This document shows, one piece after another, positions 30,340-38,947 of a DNA stretch of 64,000 nt. Below the pieces are notes generated by a model. It searched no databases, was not told the origin of the DNA, and saw nothing but the letters and a program-made list of their open reading frames with translations. The translations under genes were made by a program, and so were the position numbers. Source of the DNA: Paenibacillus lycopersici (lineage in GTDB: Bacteria > Bacillota > Bacilli > Paenibacillales > Paenibacillaceae). The stretch's first letter is position 1; each line of letters opens with the position of its first letter. The stretch spans positions 2,855,001 through 2,919,000 of the forward strand of contig NZ_CP048209.1 in NCBI RefSeq assembly GCF_010119935.1, read 5' to 3'.

Positions 30340-31605
30340 TTGAAGAATTATACGTTAAGCAACGGCCTCCGCGTCGTTGTGGAATACATTCCGACCTGCC
30401 GTTCCGTTTCGTTCGGTATCTGGGTCAAGACCGGCTCGCGCAATGAGACGCCGGACAATAACGGCATTTCCCACTTTATCGAGCATATGCTGTTCAAGGG
30501 CACGGAACGCCACAGCGCGAAGGATATCGCCGATTTGTTCGATGGCATCGGCGGCAACGTGAACGCGTTCACGGCCAAGGAATATACATGCTATTTCGCC
30601 AAAGTGCTGGATCAGCATCTGCCGATCGCGGTAGACGCGCTGGCGGACATGTTCTTCAATTCGAAGATGGACGCGGCGGAGCTTGCCAAAGAGAAGAACG
30701 TCATTCTCGAAGAAATCGCGATGTACGAGGATACGCCGGACGATAAGGTGCATGACGAAGCTTCGCGCGCGGCCTACGGCGATCACCCGCTCGCTTATTC
30801 CATCCTGGGCCTGGAAGAGCGCCTGAACGCGATGGACGGCGACACGCTGCGCGGTTACATGAACGGTCATTACCGGATCGACAATACCGTGATCGCCGTT
30901 GCGGGGAACGTGGAAGAAGGGCCGCTGCTGGAGCTGCTCGAGAAGCATTTCGGCGCCTTCAAGACGACCGGCTCGGAACTTGCCGTAACGACGCCGCAAT
31001 TCAACGGCAATTATTTGTTCCATAAGAAGAAGACGGAGCAGAACCATATCTGCATCTCGTTCCCGGGCTGCTCCATCGCCGACCCGCTGCAATATGCGAT
31101 GATTCTGCTGAACAACGCGATCGGCGGCGGCATGAGCTCCAGGCTGTTCCAGGAAATTCGGGAGAAGCGCGGCCTGGCGTATTCCGTCTATTCGTATCAT
31201 ACGTCCTACGCGGACAGCGGCTTATTCACCGTGTACGCTGGGACGGCGCCCAAGCAGACGAAGGACGTGCTGAACCTGACGATGGAGCAGATGCACGATC
31301 TGGCGGTGAAAGGCTTGACGGATGCCGAGCTCGCGCGCGGCAAGGAACAGCTGAAGGGCAGCCTGATCCTCAGCCTGGAGAGCACCAGCAGCCGGATGAA
31401 CCGGTTGGGCAAGAACGAGCTGATGCTCGGCCGTCATTACACGCTGGATCAGATGCTGGAGCGGATCGATGCCGTTCAAATGGGCGATATCCGCGAAGTG
31501 ACGAAACGGATGCTAGCGGTGCCGTTCGCGGTCGCGATGGTCGGCAGCAACGATAAAGCGGCGGCAGGGATCGGGAGGGACTCGCTTGTTTCAAGTATTG
31601 TTTAA
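30340..31605 (+). CDS. mlpA: M16 family zinc metallopeptidase (MlpA)
   Basis: A 421-residue processing-protease homolog with the inverted zinc motif HFIEHMLFKGT near residue 47 and the third ligand in EEIAMYED about 75 residues later. The second half is the usual inactive M16 repeat (RGLAYSVYSYHTSY). In Bacillus MlpA (YmxG) lies in the same place before dut. TTG start after AGGAGGAG. Its end overlaps dut by 20 bases. Substrate is unknown. Confidence 0.93.
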   Translation: MKNYTLSNGLRVVVEYIPTCRSVSFGIWVKTGSRNETPDNNGISHFIEHMLFKGTERHSAKDIADLFDGIGGNVNAFTAKEYTCYFAKVLDQHLPIAVDALADMFFNSKMDAAELAKEKNVILEEIAMYEDTPDDKVHDEASRAAYGDHPLAYSILGLEERLNAMDGDTLRGYMNGHYRIDNTVIAVAGNVEEGPLLELLEKHFGAFKTTGSELAVTTPQFNGNYLFHKKKTEQNHICISFPGCSIADPLQYAMILLNNAIGGGMSSRLFQEIREKRGLAYSVYSYHTSYADSGLFTVYAGTAPKQTKDVLNLTMEQMHDLAVKGLTDAELARGKEQLKGSLILSLESTSSRMNRLGKNELMLGRHYTLDQMLERIDAVQMGDIREVTKRMLAVPFAVAMVGSNDKAAAGIGRDSLVSSIV

Positions 31606-32029
31606 ACGGACGCCGGGCTGCGAGGACCTTCCGCTTCCGCGCAAAATGTCCGATCTGGCCGCGGGCTTCGACCTGCACGCCGCCGTAACGGAACCGGAAA
31701 CGCTGCAGCCGGGCGAACGCAGGCTGATTCCGACCGGCTTCGCGATGGCAATGCCGGCGGCGCTCGAAGCGCAAATCCGTCCGCGCAGCGGCCTGGCGTT
31801 CAAGCATGGCATTACGTGCTTGAATTCGCCCGGCACGATCGACGCGGATTACCGCGGCGAAGTGAAGGTGCTGCTGATCAACCACGGGCAAGCGCCGTTC
31901 GTCATCGAACGCGGCGAGCGGATCGCGCAGATGGTATTCCAGCTCGTGCCGGAAGTCGCGATCGCGGAGACGGACGAATTGCCGGAAACGGTTCGCGGCG
32001 CGGGCGGCTTCGGCCATACGGGCGTTTAG
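31586..32029 (+). CDS. dut: dUTP diphosphatase
   Basis: A 147-residue trimeric dUTPase hydrolysing dUTP to dUMP. All five motifs are present: AAGFDLHA, RPRSGLA, GTIDADYRGEVKV, RGERIAQMVF and RGAGGFGHTG (His where many enzymes have Ser). TTG start inside the 3' end of mlpA after GGGAGG; the overlap implies coupling. The first residues FQVLFKRTPGCEDLPLP fit the family well. Confidence 0.95.
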   Translation: MFQVLFKRTPGCEDLPLPRKMSDLAAGFDLHAAVTEPETLQPGERRLIPTGFAMAMPAALEAQIRPRSGLAFKHGITCLNSPGTIDADYRGEVKVLLINHGQAPFVIERGERIAQMVFQLVPEVAIAETDELPETVRGAGGFGHTGV

Positions 32030-32062
32030 TCGGGCTCCCTTAACAAGCATCAATAGCGCACG

Positions 32063-32097
32063 AAAGCACTGCAGTCTACGCTGCGGTGCTTTTTTTG
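32063..32097 (+). terminator. Terminator after dut
   Basis: AAAGCACTGCAG, loop TCTACG, CTGCGGTGCTTT (one wobble pair), then T residues. The remaining spacer to dpaA (about 300 bp) contains only the promoter candidate below and a small AAGC/GCTT-rich dyad near 32286-32312. Confidence 0.88.
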
Positions 32098-32134
32098 TCC
32101 GCGCAATTCTCCGCGCGGAGGCAATTTCATTTTC

Positions 32135-32162
32135 ACCACGCTCTGGGCGGATGCATAAGATG
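32135..32162 (+). promoter_or_regulatory. Candidate sigma-K promoter for dpaAB
   Basis: AC, 17 bases, CATAAGATG; the sigma-K consensus is AC-N16/17-CATANNNTA, so only the last base differs. The dipicolinate synthase operon of Bacillus is transcribed by sigma-K in the mother cell. It leaves a leader of about 220 bases, which is long, hence modest confidence. Confidence 0.4.
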
Positions 32163-32392
32163 GTCTGTAACCATGAGCGCACACCGTCATCCGGCCGCCG
32201 GCAGCGGGCATCCGGATGCGGTACGGACGACCGAACCGTGGACGAAACCTACGCGCGTATCGGTTGCTGCCTGAAATACAAGCAAGCATAAGCTTCCGCT
32301 TACATGCAAGCTTGCATTTCTCCGGAATGAGACGCGCCGCGCTGCCAGAAGGATGGCGACAGCCGTCTCACCTTGAAAGGAGTGATACCTTT

Positions 32393-33292
32393 ATGCTGAC
32401 AGGAGTTCAGGTCGTGCTGCTTGGCGGCGACGCTCGGGGACTGGAGATCATCCGCAAGCTGACCGAGCTCGATGCGACCGTAACGGTCGCGGGTTTCGAT
32501 CAACTGCATTCGTCCTTGGACGGCGCGGTTCGCGCGGAGATGAGCGAGTCGCTGTTCGTGAATGCGGATGCGCTGATCTTGCCGGCGGTCGGCACGGACG
32601 ACGAAGGGAAGATCGTAGCCGTATTCAGCGATCAAGAGCTGGTGCTGACCGAGGCGTACATCGCCAAGCTGCCGAAGCATTGCAAAGTTTACGCTGGCAT
32701 GGCCAAACCTTATCTGCGCGAGCTGTGCGCCAAGCATAGCATCGGTTTGGTGGAGCTGTTCGACCGCGACGACGTCGCCATATACAACTCGATTCCGACC
32801 GCGGAAGGCGCCGTCATGATGGCCATCCAGAATACGGACATCACGATTCACGGTTCCTCCAGCATGGTGCTCGGAATCGGCCGGACGGGGCTGACTTTGG
32901 CGCGGACGCTTCAAGGATTGGGCGCGAAAGTGAAGGTCGGCGTACGCAGGGAAGAGCATTTCGCAAGAGCCTGCGAGATGGGCTTCGAGCCCTTCTACAT
33001 CAAGGATTTGCTGCATCATGTGAGTAATATTGACTTGCTTTTTAATACAATTCCGACTATGATAGTCACAGCGCAAATTATAGCAAATTTGCCCTCGCGA
33101 GCGGTCATTATCGACCTTGCTTCCAAGCCCGGCGGAACGGATTTCCGCTTTGCCGAGAAGCGCGGAATCAAGGCCTTGCTCGCCCCCGGCCTCCCAGGAA
33201 TCGTCGCACCCAAAACAGCTGGACGCATCATGGCGGATTGTTTGAGTCGATTGATTATGGAAGATAACAGGTTACGGGGGAATGAGCAATGA
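32393..33292 (+). CDS. dpaA: Dipicolinate synthase subunit A
   Basis: A 299-residue SpoVFA protein with a Rossmann-type dinucleotide loop SSMVLGIGRTGLTLA around residue 155-170. With DpaB it oxidises dihydrodipicolinate to dipicolinic acid in the mother cell; this is packed with calcium into the spore core. ATG 32393 follows GAAAGGAGTG; a longer in-frame extension to 32216 is not protein-like. Overlaps dpaB by 4 bases. Confidence 0.95.
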   Translation: MLTGVQVVLLGGDARGLEIIRKLTELDATVTVAGFDQLHSSLDGAVRAEMSESLFVNADALILPAVGTDDEGKIVAVFSDQELVLTEAYIAKLPKHCKVYAGMAKPYLRELCAKHSIGLVELFDRDDVAIYNSIPTAEGAVMMAIQNTDITIHGSSSMVLGIGRTGLTLARTLQGLGAKVKVGVRREEHFARACEMGFEPFYIKDLLHHVSNIDLLFNTIPTMIVTAQIIANLPSRAVIIDLASKPGGTDFRFAEKRGIKALLAPGLPGIVAPKTAGRIMADCLSRLIMEDNRLRGNEQ

Positions 33293-33876
33293 AATGGCAA
33301 GGCAAAACGGTGGGCTACGCGCTCTCCGGTTCTCACTGTACGTTCGCGGAGGTTATGCCGGTTATCCAGCGCTTCGTCGACGAAGGAGCGAACGTCGTTC
33401 CGATCGTGACGCAGACGCTCATTACGACGGATACCCGTTTCGGAACGGCGGAAGAATGGCAGCGTCAGCTGAAGTCCATCACCGGGAATGAAATCATCTC
33501 GACCATCGTCGACGCAGAGCCCCTGGGGCCTTCCAAACTGCTCGACGTTCTCGTCATCGCCCCTTGCACGGGGAATACGACAAGCAAGCTCGCGAACGCC
33601 ATGACGGACAGTCCCGTTCTGATGGCGGCGAAAGCGCAAATGCGAAACCAGCGTCCGCTCGTATTGGCCATCTCGACCAATGACGGACTCGGGTTGAACG
33701 CGGCGAATATCGCCAAACTGCTCGTATGCAAGAACGTATATTTCGTTCCGTTCGGGCAGGATAATCCGATTCAGAAGCCGAATTCGCTGGTGGCCAAAAT
33801 GGAACTCGTTCCGGAAGCCTGCGAAGCGGCGCTGAACGGCAAACAGCTTCAGCCTCTCCTGATCGAGCGCGCCTAA
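33289..33876 (+). CDS. dpaB: Dipicolinate synthase subunit B (flavoprotein)
   Basis: A 195-residue SpoVFB of the FMN-dependent flavoprotein fold (KTVGYALSGSHCTFAEVMPVI; VIAPCTGNTTSKLANAMTD in parts). Coupled to dpaA by an ATGA overlap. In B. subtilis the next genes are asd, dapG and dapA; here asd is degenerate. Confidence 0.95.
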   Translation: MKWQGKTVGYALSGSHCTFAEVMPVIQRFVDEGANVVPIVTQTLITTDTRFGTAEEWQRQLKSITGNEIISTIVDAEPLGPSKLLDVLVIAPCTGNTTSKLANAMTDSPVLMAAKAQMRNQRPLVLAISTNDGLGLNAANIAKLLVCKNVYFVPFGQDNPIQKPNSLVAKMELVPEACEAALNGKQLQPLLIERA

Positions 33877-33918
33877 TCGCCGCAATAAGGGAGATGCGGC
33901 AATCAATGCCGCAGCAGA

Positions 33919-34517
33919 ATGTCATCCGCCCGTTCCGCGGGCAAGCGGCTGAGGTTTAAAGGCAAGGCATATACAGTCGAAGAAGCAGCGCCGGACAGTT
34001 TCCAAGGTGTAGTAATCGCTTGGTTCAGTGCGGGCGGCGAGGTGTCCAGAGCACTTGCCCCCACGCTGTCGGGCGCGGCGCGGATTGCATCGGCAACGCG
34101 AACGCTTCTCGCATGGATCCGGACACGCCGTTGATCGCGCCGGAAGTCTGCATCGATTAAGTGAACGAACATAAAGGCATTATCCCAATTGCGATTTATG
34201 CGATTCCGCAAATTTCCGTCGTTGAAGGCATTCCGGAATCGGCATACGCAGAACTCACAAACGATTACGAGCTGGAAGACGTCAAAAATGTGCTTGCTGG
34301 CGCTCCAATCGTCGTGTTGGCCGATGATCCCGCAAGCCAGCGGTATCCGCCTTCGACGGATGCGGCCGGCAAGCCTGATGTGTTCGTCGGTCGGCTGCGC
34401 CGCGATTGGGGTCGCGCACGCGGCCTGAACTAATGGATCGTATCGGATAATCTGCTTATAGGAGCAGCATGGAACGCAGTTCAGATCGCAGAATACATCG
34501 CCATTGCAATGCCATAA
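33919..34517 (+). pseudogene. asd: Decayed aspartate-semialdehyde dehydrogenase (asd) remnant
   Basis: Three asd pieces in the right order. First (33919-34062): SARSAGKRLRFKGKAYTVEE and FSAGGEVSRALAP. Then a frameshift: NANASRMDPDTPLIAPEV (34098-34150) in another frame, a TAA at 34158, VNEHKGII fused directly to AIPQI, then LEDVKNVLAGAPIVVLADDP, YPPSTDAAGKPDVFVGR, a TAA at 34431, and the C-terminal WIVSDNLLIGAAWNAVQIAE to a final TAA at 34515. The N-terminal nucleotide-binding loop and the segment with the catalytic cysteine (NPNCSTIQ) are deleted. About 600 bp remain of roughly 1050. It cannot be functional. It sits exactly where intact asd lies in Bacillus. Confidence 0.93.
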
Positions 34518-34589
34518 CGGTTAGCAGCAAGAGCAGGTTGTCAGACGGACGGTCCGGCGGGCTTCACAGTCGGATATGGAGGTTCGACA

Positions 34590-35804
34590 ATGCGCATCCT
34601 CGTGCAAAAGTTCGGAGGCACCTCGTTGTCTACGGACGAAGCAAGAGAGCTAGTAATCAAGCATATCGAGCGTGAACGGCAACGCCAGTACGGACTGGTC
34701 GTTGTCGTCTCTGCAATGGGGCGGAAAGGCGACCCTTACGCAACGGACACGCTGCTTGCGCTGATCGCGCGGCACGGCGATTCGCTGCCGGCCAAGGAGC
34801 GAGACATGCTTCAAGGCTGCGGCGAAATCATTTCCGCGTCCGTGCTCTGCAGTCTTGTGCGCGCGGCGGGCATTCCGGCCATCGCGCTTACGGGCGGCGG
34901 AGCGGGCATCATTACGGATTCGCAGTTCGGCAAAGCAAGAATTTTGGAAATTCGCACGGAACGCATCCATCAAGCGCTGCGGGAAGGCCGCGTCGTCATC
35001 GTGACCGGCTTCCAAGGCGTTACCGAATCGGGAGATTATACGACCCTCGGCAGAGGCGGCAGCGATACGTCGGCAACGGCGCTGGGCGCGGCGCTTCATG
35101 CGGAGCGAGTCGATATCTATACGGACGTGAACGGAATCCTTACGGCAGATCCCCGGATCGTCAAAGACGCACGCGCATTATCCGTTATCAGTTATTCGGA
35201 AGTCGCCAACATGGCAAGGCAAGGAGCCAAGGTTATTCATCCGCGGGCCGTGGAAATCGCGCAGCAGGCGCGGATACCGCTGCGAGTCCGTTCGACGTTC
35301 TCCGAGGACGAAGGCACGCTCGTGACGGATACGGCCGACGTGCTGCGGACGGCCGCCGTGCGAGACAGGCATGTCACCGGCGTCGCGCATGTGAGCGGCG
35401 TTACCCAAATTACGGTTCAAGCGCAGGACGGTCCGTCCGACGTGCAGCTGCAGGTGTTTCAAGCGATGGCCAAACATCATATCAGCGTCGATTTCATTAA
35501 CGTCAATCCGGGCGGAGCGGTGTATACGGTATTCGACCAGGATGCGGATAAAGCGGTTTCAGTGCTGCGGGATATCGGGTACGCGCCGCAAGCGGTGAAC
35601 GGATGCGTCAAAATCTCGGTCATCGGCGGAGGCATGAACGGCGTCCCCGGCATCATGGCCCGGATCGTGGAAGCATTGACGGAGAAGGGGATTCCGATTT
35701 TACAATCCGCGGACTCGAATACGACCATATGGGTACTGGTGCGCGAGACGTATATGGCCAGCGCGCTTCAGGCGCTGCATGCCAAGTTTTCGCTGCATGA
35801 GTAA
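34590..35804 (+). CDS. dapG: Aspartokinase I (diaminopimelate-sensitive type)
   Basis: A 404-residue aspartate kinase starting ILVQKFGGTSLSTDEA, with the substrate-binding GRGGSDTSATALG and two C-terminal ACT domains (around 265-400). It catalyses the first step of the aspartate pathway. By gene order it is DapG, whose Bacillus counterpart is inhibited by meso-diaminopimelate. ATG follows GGAGG at modest spacing. Downstream of the dead asd gene, it is apparently still intact. Confidence 0.94.
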   Translation: MRILVQKFGGTSLSTDEARELVIKHIERERQRQYGLVVVVSAMGRKGDPYATDTLLALIARHGDSLPAKERDMLQGCGEIISASVLCSLVRAAGIPAIALTGGGAGIITDSQFGKARILEIRTERIHQALREGRVVIVTGFQGVTESGDYTTLGRGGSDTSATALGAALHAERVDIYTDVNGILTADPRIVKDARALSVISYSEVANMARQGAKVIHPRAVEIAQQARIPLRVRSTFSEDEGTLVTDTADVLRTAAVRDRHVTGVAHVSGVTQITVQAQDGPSDVQLQVFQAMAKHHISVDFINVNPGGAVYTVFDQDADKAVSVLRDIGYAPQAVNGCVKISVIGGGMNGVPGIMARIVEALTEKGIPILQSADSNTTIWVLVRETYMASALQALHAKFSLHE

Positions 35805-35923
35805 CGGCCCTTGTTTGTTGCGGTTTCAGGCAATGAAGGCTCGAAGGGCCATTAGGCTTCGCAAGCGATCGTCATGGCTTTGATATTATGATTGTTGATG
35901 CAACAATTTTAGGAGGAATCGTT

Positions 35924-36787
35924 TTGGATTTCGGACGTTTAGTAACTGCGATGGTAACCCCGTTCTCTGCAGACGGTTCGATCGACTGGGACACGACAGG
36001 GCGGTTATTGACTTATTTGATTGACGACCAATCAAGCGACAGCATCGTCGTCTGCGGCACGACCGGCGAATCTCCGACGCTGACCGACGACGAGAAACGC
36101 GACTTGTTCACGTATGCGGTCAAGCATGCGGGCGGCCGCTGCAAGATCATCGCCGGCACGGGCAGCAACGATACGGCGCACTCGATCCATCTGACCAAGA
36201 TCGCCGAACAATGCGGCGTTGATGCGGTGCTTCTCGTGGCGCCGTATTATAACAAACCGACGCAAGAGGGACTGTATCAGCATTTCAAAGCGATCGCGGA
36301 GTCGACGATGCTGCCGGTCATGCTGTATAACGTGCCGGGCCGGACGATTATCAGCCTGTCCGCCGCTACGACGCTGCGTCTGGCGCAATTGCCGAACGTC
36401 ATCGCGACGAAGGAATGCGCATCGCTTGACCAGGTGACCGAGATTGTGACGGGCGCGCCCGAAGGCTTCCGCGTATATAGCGGCGACGACAGCGCCGCGC
36501 TTCCGGCGCTTGCCGTCGGCGCGCACGGGGTCGTGAGCGTCGCGAGCCATGTCGTCGGCAAGCCGATGAAAGCGATGATCCAAGCTTACCTGGAGGGCAA
36601 CGCAGCGCTAGCTGCCAAGCTGCACGGCGAGAACCTGCCGGTATTCAAAGGATTGTTCGATCTGCCGAATCCGGTGCTCGTCAAAGCGGCATTGGCGCTT
36701 CGCGGACTTCCGGTCGGCGGCGTGCGCCTGCCGTTGGTCGCGGCCAACGAAAGCGAAATTGCGACGCTTCGTCAAGTTTTAAACTAA
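35924..36787 (+). CDS. dapA: 4-hydroxy-tetrahydrodipicolinate synthase
   Basis: A 287-residue class I aldolase condensing pyruvate with aspartate semialdehyde. Visible: LVTAMVTPFSADGSID, CGTTGESPTLT, the Tyr in MLYNVPGRT and the Schiff-base Lys in VIATKECASLDQ. TTG 35924 is chosen since AGGAGG lies 8 bases before it; the upstream in-frame ATG lacks a site. Its product leads both to diaminopimelate and, with DpaAB, to dipicolinate. Confidence 0.96.
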   Translation: MDFGRLVTAMVTPFSADGSIDWDTTGRLLTYLIDDQSSDSIVVCGTTGESPTLTDDEKRDLFTYAVKHAGGRCKIIAGTGSNDTAHSIHLTKIAEQCGVDAVLLVAPYYNKPTQEGLYQHFKAIAESTMLPVMLYNVPGRTIISLSAATTLRLAQLPNVIATKECASLDQVTEIVTGAPEGFRVYSGDDSAALPALAVGAHGVVSVASHVVGKPMKAMIQAYLEGNAALAAKLHGENLPVFKGLFDLPNPVLVKAALALRGLPVGGVRLPLVAANESEIATLRQVLN

Positions 36788-36826
36788 TCATCACTGCTTC
36801 GTGGTTATAGCAGCTGCATTCGCCAC

Positions 36827-36853
36827 AAACCGGTGCGCTTGCATCGGTTTTTT
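36827..36853 (+). terminator. Terminator after dapA
   Basis: AAACCGGTGC, loop GCTT, GCATCGGTTT (one G-U) followed by T residues. Confidence 0.85.
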
Positions 36854-36997
36854 GTTTGATTTTCGATGGCGGAACGGTTAATTCGGCAGCTTGCTTCCCA
36901 TCAAGCGAAGCCGGACAAGCCTCGCGGGGCGCGGGATGTGCACACGGAAGCGCTCACAGCTCGCATGTTTCCTACGCGCCAAGTCAAGATAGGTTAC

Positions 36998-37027
36998 TTG
37001 TTTTTCCTATTTTCAATCATGTATAAT
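36998..37027 (+). promoter_or_regulatory. Sigma-A promoter for rnjB
   Basis: TTGTTT, 18-base spacer, TATAAT, about 240 bases before the gene. Between the dapA terminator and this promoter nothing else is apparent. Confidence 0.65.
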
Positions 37028-37104
37028 GAAGGCAAGTGACGATGTGCGGCAAAATTTAGAAAACATGCAGCGCCTTGGACGGCGTTCGACTAGCACGGGT
37101 TATT

Positions 37105-37218
37105 AATTGCATGCAGCGGCTTTCCTGAGGGAGGAAATAGCTGCCGTGCAATTCAAGTTTCGGATTATAAATGGAATAGATGGAACGGAGTGTCTTTTCC
37201 CGATTCAGTGAGATCGGG
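37105..37218 (+). promoter_or_regulatory. Two-hairpin 5' leader of rnjB
   Basis: A 49-base imperfect hairpin at 37105-37153 (outer AATTGCA/TGCAATT, middle CAGCGGC/GCTGCCG region, inner TTTCCT/AGGAAA) followed by CCCGAT/ATCGGG at 37199-37218. Neither is followed by a U-run. The mRNA of this ribonuclease thus has an unusually structured leader. Confidence 0.6.
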
Positions 37219-37264
37219 AGAGGTGCACCTTGTTTCCTACTACGATTAGGAGGTATGGATTCAC

Positions 37265-38947
37265 TTGTCTAATAAGAAGAACATCCAGGATAAGCTGCTT
37301 ATTTTCGCGTTGGGCGGCGTTGGTGAAATCGGTAAGAACATGTACGTCGTTCAATACGGTAATGATATCGTTGTCGTTGATGCAGGTCTCAAATTCCCTG
37401 AAGAAGATATGCTCGGTATTGATATTGTTATCCCTGACATTACGTACTTAACGGAGAATCGCGATAAAGTAAGGGGCATTCTCATTACGCACGGCCACGA
37501 GGATCATATCGGCGGATTGCCTTACGTGATGAAGCACCTCAACGTGCCGCTGTACGCGACCAAGCTGACGCTCGGCCTCATCGAAGGCAAATTGAAAGAA
37601 GCCGGCCTGCTTGGCGAAACGAAACGGATTCTGATCAATGCCGACAGCGAAGTGCAGCTCGGCTCGATCAAAGCTTCGTTCTTCAAAACGAACCACAGCA
37701 TTCCGGATTCGGTCGGCGTTTGCCTGGACACGCCTGAAGGCACGGTCGTACATACGGGCGACTTCAAATTCGACCATACGCCGGTTAACAATCAATACGC
37801 GGATTTGCAGCGCATTGCGGATATCGGCCGCCGCGGCGTACTGGCGCTGCTGTCGGACAGCACGAACGCGGAACGCGCAGGCTTCACGCCTTCGGAAAGC
37901 ATGATCGGTTCGGAGCTGGAAGATATTTTCCGCAAAGCGACGCAGCGCGTCGTCGTCGCGACGTTCGCATCGAACGTGCACCGGATTCAGCAAGTCGTCA
38001 ACGCAGCCATCGCGACGAAACGCAAAATCGCCGTCGTCGGCCGCAGCATGGTGAACGTCGTTACGATCGCTTCGGAGCTCGGCTACTTGAACATTCCGGA
38101 AGGAACGATCATCGAACCGGAAGAGATTAACAAAATGGCAGCCGACCGCGTTGCGGTCCTGTCGACGGGAAGCCAAGGCGAGCCGATGTCCGCGCTGACG
38201 CGGATGGCGCGTTCGACGCACCGCAAGGTCGATATTATGCCCGGCGATACCGTTATCATCGCAGCGACGCCGATTCCGGGCAACGAGCGTTACGTAGGCC
38301 GCACGGTCGACGAACTGTTCCGCCTCGGCGCGAACGTTATCTACGGACCAGGTTCCGTATCCGGCGTACACGTATCCGGTCACGGCAGCCAGGAAGAGCT
38401 GAAGCTGATGCTGAACCTCATCCGTCCGAAATATTTCATGCCGATCCACGGCGAATACCGGATGCTCCGCCAGCATGCGCTGCTTGGCGAAGCGGTCGGC
38501 ATCGAGCGCGAAAACATTTTCATCGTCGACAACGGCGATACGGTTGAATTCCAAGGCGGAACGGCCCGTAAAGGAAGCAAGGTGCCGGCAGGCAACGTGC
38601 TGATCGACGGGTTGGGCGTCGGCGACGTAGGCAACATCGTGCTTCGCGACCGTAAACTGCTGTCGCAGGACGGCATTCTCGTCGTCGTCGTGACGCTGAG
38701 CAAGCAAGACGGCGCGATCCTGTCCGGTCCGGACATCATCTCCCGCGGCTTCGTCTACGTCCGCGAGTCCGAAGGCCTGCTCGAAGAGGCGAACCGGATC
38801 GTTACCTCGACGCTGCATAAGCTGATGAACGATAAAGTGAACGAATGGGCATCGCTGAAGACGAACGTGAAGGATGCGCTCGGCCGTTTCTTGTACGAGC
38901 AGACCCGCCGCCGTCCGATGATCTTGCCGATTATTATGGAAGTGTAA
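37265..38947 (+). CDS. rnjB: Ribonuclease J
   Basis: A 560-residue RNase J with dual 5' exonuclease and endonuclease activity. Beta-lactamase motifs: ITHGHEDHIGGLPYV (around 72-86), HTGDFKFD, the beta-CASP part with STGSQGEPMSAL, HVSGHGSQEELKLM and PIHGEYRML. The symbol follows gene order (after dapA, as Bacillus rnjB); I cannot separate J1 from J2 by eye. TTG start 11 bases after AGGAGG. Confidence 0.93.
   Translation: MSNKKNIQDKLLIFALGGVGEIGKNMYVVQYGNDIVVVDAGLKFPEEDMLGIDIVIPDITYLTENRDKVRGILITHGHEDHIGGLPYVMKHLNVPLYATKLTLGLIEGKLKEAGLLGETKRILINADSEVQLGSIKASFFKTNHSIPDSVGVCLDTPEGTVVHTGDFKFDHTPVNNQYADLQRIADIGRRGVLALLSDSTNAERAGFTPSESMIGSELEDIFRKATQRVVVATFASNVHRIQQVVNAAIATKRKIAVVGRSMVNVVTIASELGYLNIPEGTIIEPEEINKMAADRVAVLSTGSQGEPMSALTRMARSTHRKVDIMPGDTVIIAATPIPGNERYVGRTVDELFRLGANVIYGPGSVSGVHVSGHGSQEELKLMLNLIRPKYFMPIHGEYRMLRQHALLGEAVGIERENIFIVDNGDTVEFQGGTARKGSKVPAGNVLIDGLGVGDVGNIVLRDRKLLSQDGILVVVVTLSKQDGAILSGPDIISRGFVYVRESEGLLEEANRIVTSTLHKLMNDKVNEWASLKTNVKDALGRFLYEQTRRRPMILPIIMEV

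Follow-up and report, generated by a model that had tools for sequence, protein, structure and literature searches.

How does a spore-forming bacterium manage with a dead copy of asd in an operon whose other genes are intact? The question is raised by a window of 64,000 nucleotides, the whole stretch of DNA that was analysed, which covers positions 2855001-2919000 of a genome of 6.74 Mb in a single contig (G000). The gene order dpaAB-asd-dapG-dapA is that of Bacillus subtilis. The asd relic of the window occupies the slot expected from this order but, unlike its intact neighbours, is dead. The features of the operon are collected in Table 1, in which the intactness of dpaA, dpaB, dapG and dapA is judged by NCBIfam cut-offs. 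The dpaA open reading frame opens at 32216, and its family match runs from about 32393. Within the operon stretch 31500-37500, no Rfam family reaches its gathering score.

Table 1. Features of the operon, given in positions of the window
Feature	Position	Strand	Support
dpaA, dipicolinate synthase subunit A, intact	32393..33292	+	TIGR02853 402.6 bits, cut-off 319.65
dpaB, dipicolinate synthase subunit B, intact	33289..33876	+	TIGR02852 299.3 bits, cut-off 229
asd pseudogene, bacterial class asd_B, old start to old stop codon	33906..34517	+	
Remnant of the old translation start: GGGAG 33889-33893, ATG 33906, three codons	33889..33919	+	alignment with intact relatives
Relic fragment 1, about residues 40-127	33919..34184	+	family match and alignment
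Relic fragment 2, about residues 200-208, flanked by two deletions	34185..34212	+	alignment
Relic fragment 3, about residues 246-346	34213..34517	+	family match and alignment
asd-dapG spacer	34518..34589	+	can be aligned to intact relatives and to the decayed G008 and G011 slots
dapG, aspartokinase I, intact	34590..35804	+	NF006068 584.5 bits, cut-off 474
dapA, 4-hydroxy-tetrahydrodipicolinate synthase, intact	35888..36787	+	TIGR00674 328 bits, cut-off 206.15

The relic adjoins dpaB on one side and dapG on the other. Its two longest pieces match the bacterial asd family TIGR01296 on their own (E 1.7e-13 and 3e-14; 50.4 and 52.9 bits), and chance is excluded as the source of the matches. A whole-genome search with TIGR01296 returns three relic matches, at model positions 32-84, 69-122 and 241-336, the best of which reaches 92.3 bits and thus lies below the curated cut-off of 324.2 bits. 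What is left is a remnant and no working member of the asd_B family.

The lesions are located by alignment with the relatives that have an intact gene, which are 18 of the 22 genomes of the genus. Beyond the three retained codons, an out-of-frame deletion has removed about 34 codons, and the reading from the old start runs into a stop at 33957. A block that is conserved upstream of asd in the intact relatives is also missing in the window genome. The C run at 34058-34062 differs in length by one base, which is the frameshift; in-frame stops are present at 34158-34160 in fragment 1 and at 34431-34433 in fragment 3, while the old stop is found at 34515. Two more deletions, of about 72 and 37 codons, lie on either side of the nine-codon fragment 2. 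The former removes the NPNCS motif, whose cysteine we take to be catalytic in asd_B, and the histidine of the PVVYGHSE motif, presumably also catalytic, is replaced. A preliminary description of this DNA had reported Asd fragments in order among intact neighbours, one frameshift, two in-frame stops and deletions that take the catalytic cysteine region, all of which the family matches and the alignment bear out. Its claim of a lost N-terminus holds for the deleted codons but not for the very beginning of the gene, where the start codon at 33906 and three codons are retained; the end that it gave for the relic, 34517, stands, and the start is corrected from 33919 to 33906.

The substitutions found only in the relic are distributed over codon positions 1/2/3 as 13/23/9 in 536 alignment columns, compared with 0/0/8 and 3/3/9 for two intact relatives in the same columns (Fisher P 3.9e-5). 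The asd of the window is, judging by these patterns, a real and fairly advanced pseudogene under relaxed codon constraint. An assembly or read error, or a working protein still produced through frameshifting or readthrough, is an extremely improbable explanation. One genome of the genus, G001, differs only by one base in the same C run and could contain a read error, but the three deletions, two stops and loss of an active-site motif in the window genome are unbridgeable, and the codon-position pattern of the relic is that of unconstrained sequence. For the window genome, a read error is refuted by the large deletions.

A second asd elsewhere in the genome had been predicted, and whole-genome profile searches do find one. 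The PF02774 search has matches in three places, namely the relic, argC and an intact gene of 361 aa, here called EA1, which lies on the minus strand at G000:C1:4960262-4961347, 2.07 Mb from the relic. The PF01118 search adds a second argC and one match below the cut-off (L008), and no third asd is found in the whole genome with either profile. EA1 passes the asd_EA equivalog TIGR00978 with 349.6 bits (cut-off 301.2) over positions 1-341 of the 342 in the model, and it fails TIGR01296 with 93.8 bits (cut-off 324.2). Its closest solved relatives, each aligned over the full length, are the ASADHs 5jw6 (9e-77), 3hsk (5.4e-76) and 1ys4 (7.7e-74). According to PMC4751538, 1ys4 is the ASADH of Methanococcus jannaschii and 3hsk that of Candida albicans, both belong to an archaeal/fungal branch, and the enzymes of this branch are tetramers. 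EA1 is like that branch in passing TIGR00978 and in its full-length alignment with these structures, and it differs by its spore-forming bacterial host and its T-box. Among 14 control genomes, TIGR00978 is passed only by Deinobacterium and four archaea. Changes unique to EA1 fall on the three codon positions as 4/2/12, and the gene looks conserved.

These class assignments bear on the earlier proposal that a duplicated or transferred asd replaced the operon copy. Replacement stands and transfer is plausible, but duplication of the same asd is rejected because EA1 belongs to the other ASADH class, which is only remotely related to that of the relic. A move of EA1 into the operon elsewhere is likewise rejected, since dpaA, dpaB, dapG and dapA are all absent from the 16 kb around EA1 of G000 and from the 7.8-11 kb around EA1 in 20 genomes of other genera. 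As a separate observation, both classes of argC are present in G000 (TIGR01850 and TIGR01851; L006:1384-2355, in the G000:C1:4749078 region), so that here, too, an enzyme exists in two distant versions.

EA1 is preceded by a T-box (RF00230; L009:8506-8771, minus strand) that scores 100.2 bits against a gathering score of 93 and lies 157 nt ahead of the EA1 start codon. As in other T-box leaders, the match to RF00230 is full-length, the antiterminator motif TGGTACC is present, and a terminator-like hairpin with a T run can be seen by eye behind the T-box; the difference is that here a lysine-codon T-box stands before asd. The specifier codon, read from the sequence at the position set by the tyrS leader of the same locus (which gives UAC), is AAA, for lysine. 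As a control in the same genome, the leader of glnS (TIGR00440 652 bits) gives CAA. Two earlier papers (PMC5584792, PMC11477304) place asd among the genes of lysine riboswitches instead.

The leader tends to occur together with the archaeal-class gene. In the genus it is present in 20 of 22 genomes and missing exactly in the two that have no archaeal-class asd, and the RF00230 gathering score is reached in 19 of the 20 genus loci (67.5 in the twentieth, G002) and in 10 of 14 loci of other genera. The AAA specifier is read in 117 of 121 archaeal-class loci, or in 108 of 112 distinct leaders when it is considered that the loci come from two partly overlapping collections, one of which was scanned with 80 of 247 loci kept and the genome of the window left out. 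Two of the loci counted as AAA (L177, L180) give CTT and ATG at the first pattern match and AAA at the second, and the four loci outside the count (L101, L104, L106, L181) have no recognisable T-box. A similarity search of the genus also yields eight secondary leaders, seven of which read CAA. Six of these seven precede glutaminyl-tRNA-synthetase-like ORFs (L270, L273-L277; family-tested with TIGR00440 for L270 only), and the seventh (G008) precedes another ORF. The eighth secondary leader (G014, L272) reads AAA and stands before what by eye is a methyltransferase-like ORF of about 290 aa, so an AAA T-box alone is no marker of asd.

In a survey of 255 genomes of the family, 127 have the archaeal class only, 91 the bacterial class only (a count that takes in G034), 36 have both (taking in G001 and G231), and the one with neither is G036, an 89% complete draft. 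In G231, asd_B (G231:C1:688835-689839) has an in-frame TAG and the archaeal class is also in the genome; in G034, a draft genome without the archaeal class, asd_B (G034:C124:4225-5228) is split between frames. The survey also bears on the role of EA1. That EA1 does something else, for example as a malonyl/succinyl-CoA reductase, with ASADH activity coming from an unrecognised enzyme, is very improbable, as this would leave the 127 archaeal-class-only genomes without asd. The same fold family does include a malonyl-CoA/succinyl-CoA reductase (4dpk), which ranks below seven ASADH sequences, but EA1 lies over the equivalog cut-off of TIGR00978 and its leader is a lysine-codon T-box.

The window holds a decayed operon asd whose work is most probably, as far as sequence can tell, done by EA1 behind a lysine (AAA) T-box leader. 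From the known T-box mechanism, uncharged tRNA-Lys would open the leader and turn EA1 on at lysine shortage. EA1 would then supply the aspartate semialdehyde for lysine, diaminopimelate, threonine and methionine, and in sporulation also for dipicolinate, and with EA1 in place the operon asd would be free to decay. The earlier proposal had the replacement uncouple asd from the sporulation-linked supply of dipicolinate. The lysine T-box suggests that EA1 is controlled by demand: a drain into dipicolinate could lower lysine charging and so induce EA1, and demand, in place of the operon, would then provide the coupling.

The order of events can be followed within the genus, where the dpa region is syntenic in 22 of 22 genomes. 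The operon asd is intact in 18 of them, with a dpaB-dapG gap of 1181-1289 bp. The gaps that bear a relic measure 716 bp (G000), 505 bp (G008) and 611 bp (G011). In G001 the gap measures 1218 bp, and the one lesion there is a change of a single base in the C run, which is altered in G000 as well. A tree built from eight proteins pairs G008 with G011 and G001 with the intact G019 as sisters, and it places G000 near the intact G013, G014, G004 and G002. The operon copy has therefore been damaged at least twice independently, and three times if the lesion of G001 is real. The C run at 34058-34062 is changed by one base in two lineages (G000; G001, L084), and six consecutive C are retained at this point in 12 of the 18 intact genes of the genus, even though other codons could be used; either the run is a frameshift hot spot or G001 contains a read error.

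EA1 was present before the loss of the operon asd, because 16 of the 22 genus members have EA1 and four more have a divergent cousin, EA2. All four genomes with a damaged operon copy have EA1, and the two genomes with neither archaeal-class gene both have an intact operon copy. Both classes are found together in 17 of the 22 genomes. Such redundancy can last, since both genes are kept in 36 of the 255 genomes of the family.

Outside the genus, 18 of 20 asd_B loci sit between dpaB and dapG. The other two are G027, which has dapG and no dpaB match in the stretch, and a second copy elsewhere in G167 that is 52% identical. Thirty genomes of nine other genera that have the archaeal class only were examined, and in none of them does a full asd lie between dpaB and dapG; the gap there is 34-1170 bp. 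A dpaA-like gene occupies this place in two of the 30 (G048, G060; L131, L132), in which the operon order has changed; the gene of G048, for which this was tested, reaches 346 bits with TIGR02853. With a nucleotide profile built from 18 intact slots and a limit of E 1e-3, asd fragments show up in 13 of the 30 genomes and in three decayed slots of the genus; G001 is left out of these counts, as are three weaker matches, two of them in the 5' half and the third in the 3' half. The operon slot has decayed repeatedly where the other asd class is present.

The fragments that remain are unevenly placed. In the 16 of 33 decayed slots that have them, from eight genera, all fragments fall in the 3' half of the gene (model 600-1206) except one fragment of G000 (208-484). 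A 3' weighting in eight of eight genera has a probability of 0.004 if the genera are independent, a figure that shared losses would weaken. A detection artefact is rejected as the cause, because intact genes of other genera match both ends of the profile about equally (72-76% mean identity per bin in the 5' part, 70-81% in the 3' part). One explanation of the retention could be a control element for dapG-dapA within the 3' end of asd or directly after it. It is rather improbable, though, that such a cis-element is what preserves the 3' third of asd or the adjoining spacer. Besides the bias itself, synonymous variation is low at KNDYELEDVK and WIVSDNLLKGAA, but the lowest synonymous window lies at the 5' end of asd (0.29), the two 3' dips (0.35 and 0.38) are not beyond those of shuffled data (median minimum 0.34), and the synonymous-constraint scan is only suggestive. 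A promoter scan of 31400-34800 returns 2 sites against 1.2 in shuffles, so that no clear promoter emerges; one of the two sites lies in the spacer (34563-34591, 9 of 12). No fragment at E 1e-3 is present in 17 of the 33 slots, and gaps can be as short as 34 bp.

The origin of EA1 is approached through its neighbours and its tree. The genes beside EA1 are common mainly to close groups, such as selO and tyrS in G000 and G013 and selO in G008, whereas the dpa region is syntenic. In this comparison the EA gene is not flagged automatically in three of 20 loci (G009, G021, G005), each with a longer opposite ORF. The species topology is rejected for EA1 (75 log units, AU P 0.00025) and, more weakly, for the operon asd_B (27 log units, P 0.0125); the species tree was built from neighbours of asd_B, a choice to the advantage of asd_B. 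Taken together, neighbours and trees favour some lateral movement of EA1, and its acquisition by transfer is plausible. The presence of both ASADH classes in the family ancestor, followed by repeated differential loss, is somewhat improbable yet a serious alternative. The two classes coexist in the 36 genomes noted above and in nine of the 19 genera seen, EA1 of 20 other-genus loci is 80-93% identical to that of G000, much as dpaB is 77-87% identical over 30 genomes, and the EA1 leader and gene stay together in the genus. Differential loss is opposed by the restricted sharing of neighbours, by the stronger rejection of the species topology for EA1 than for asd_B, and by the presence of EA2 instead of EA1 in four genomes at three places in the tree.

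EA2 is a second archaeal-class ASADH lineage. It is 36% identical to EA1, its members are 80-91% identical to each other, and it lies over the TIGR00978 cut-off and behind an AAA T-box. The four genus members that have it instead of EA1 (L027-L030: G007, G020, G010, G002) fell below the E cut-off of the first locus comparison and entered in later comparisons. The leaders of EA1 and EA2 that were compared are 72-83% alike by blastn; the seven glutamine-codon leaders are also 71-75% like the EA1 leader, and the leader tree is poorly supported. The EA1 and EA2 loci have no shared neighbours that would settle an in-place replacement behind one leader. An extended and unlikely reading regards the T-box as a fixed socket, in which EA1 and EA2 never occur together (22 genus genomes), either gene would let the operon copy decay, and the 3' end of the dead asd would be kept longest as a control element for dapG-dapA. 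In the genus, operon decay is so far seen only alongside EA1. Should the socket reading be true, three ASADH lineages would swap one essential step while the control stays put.

That a distant paralogue can displace an essential enzyme is known. Here too a distantly related enzyme takes over one step and the old gene decays; the difference is that the stages can be seen in one family, as both genes intact, a one-base lesion, a large relic, a faint relic and an emptied slot. Neither the components nor this type of event is new, and a T-box before asd may be in print already. What appears to be new is the family-wide decay series with its T-box link, since in the open-access literature searched we did not find a family-wide displacement of asd linked to a lysine T-box.

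The value of the family is that it shows an essential enzyme giving way to a distant cousin at many different stages, with the lysine-sensing leader as a candidate reason why the newcomer wins. Anyone who infers lysine and dipicolinate supply from the operon would, in some species, be relying on a dead gene. An inhibitor of the bacterial-class ASADH would have no target in about half of the family members sampled, the 127 of 255 genomes that have the archaeal class only.
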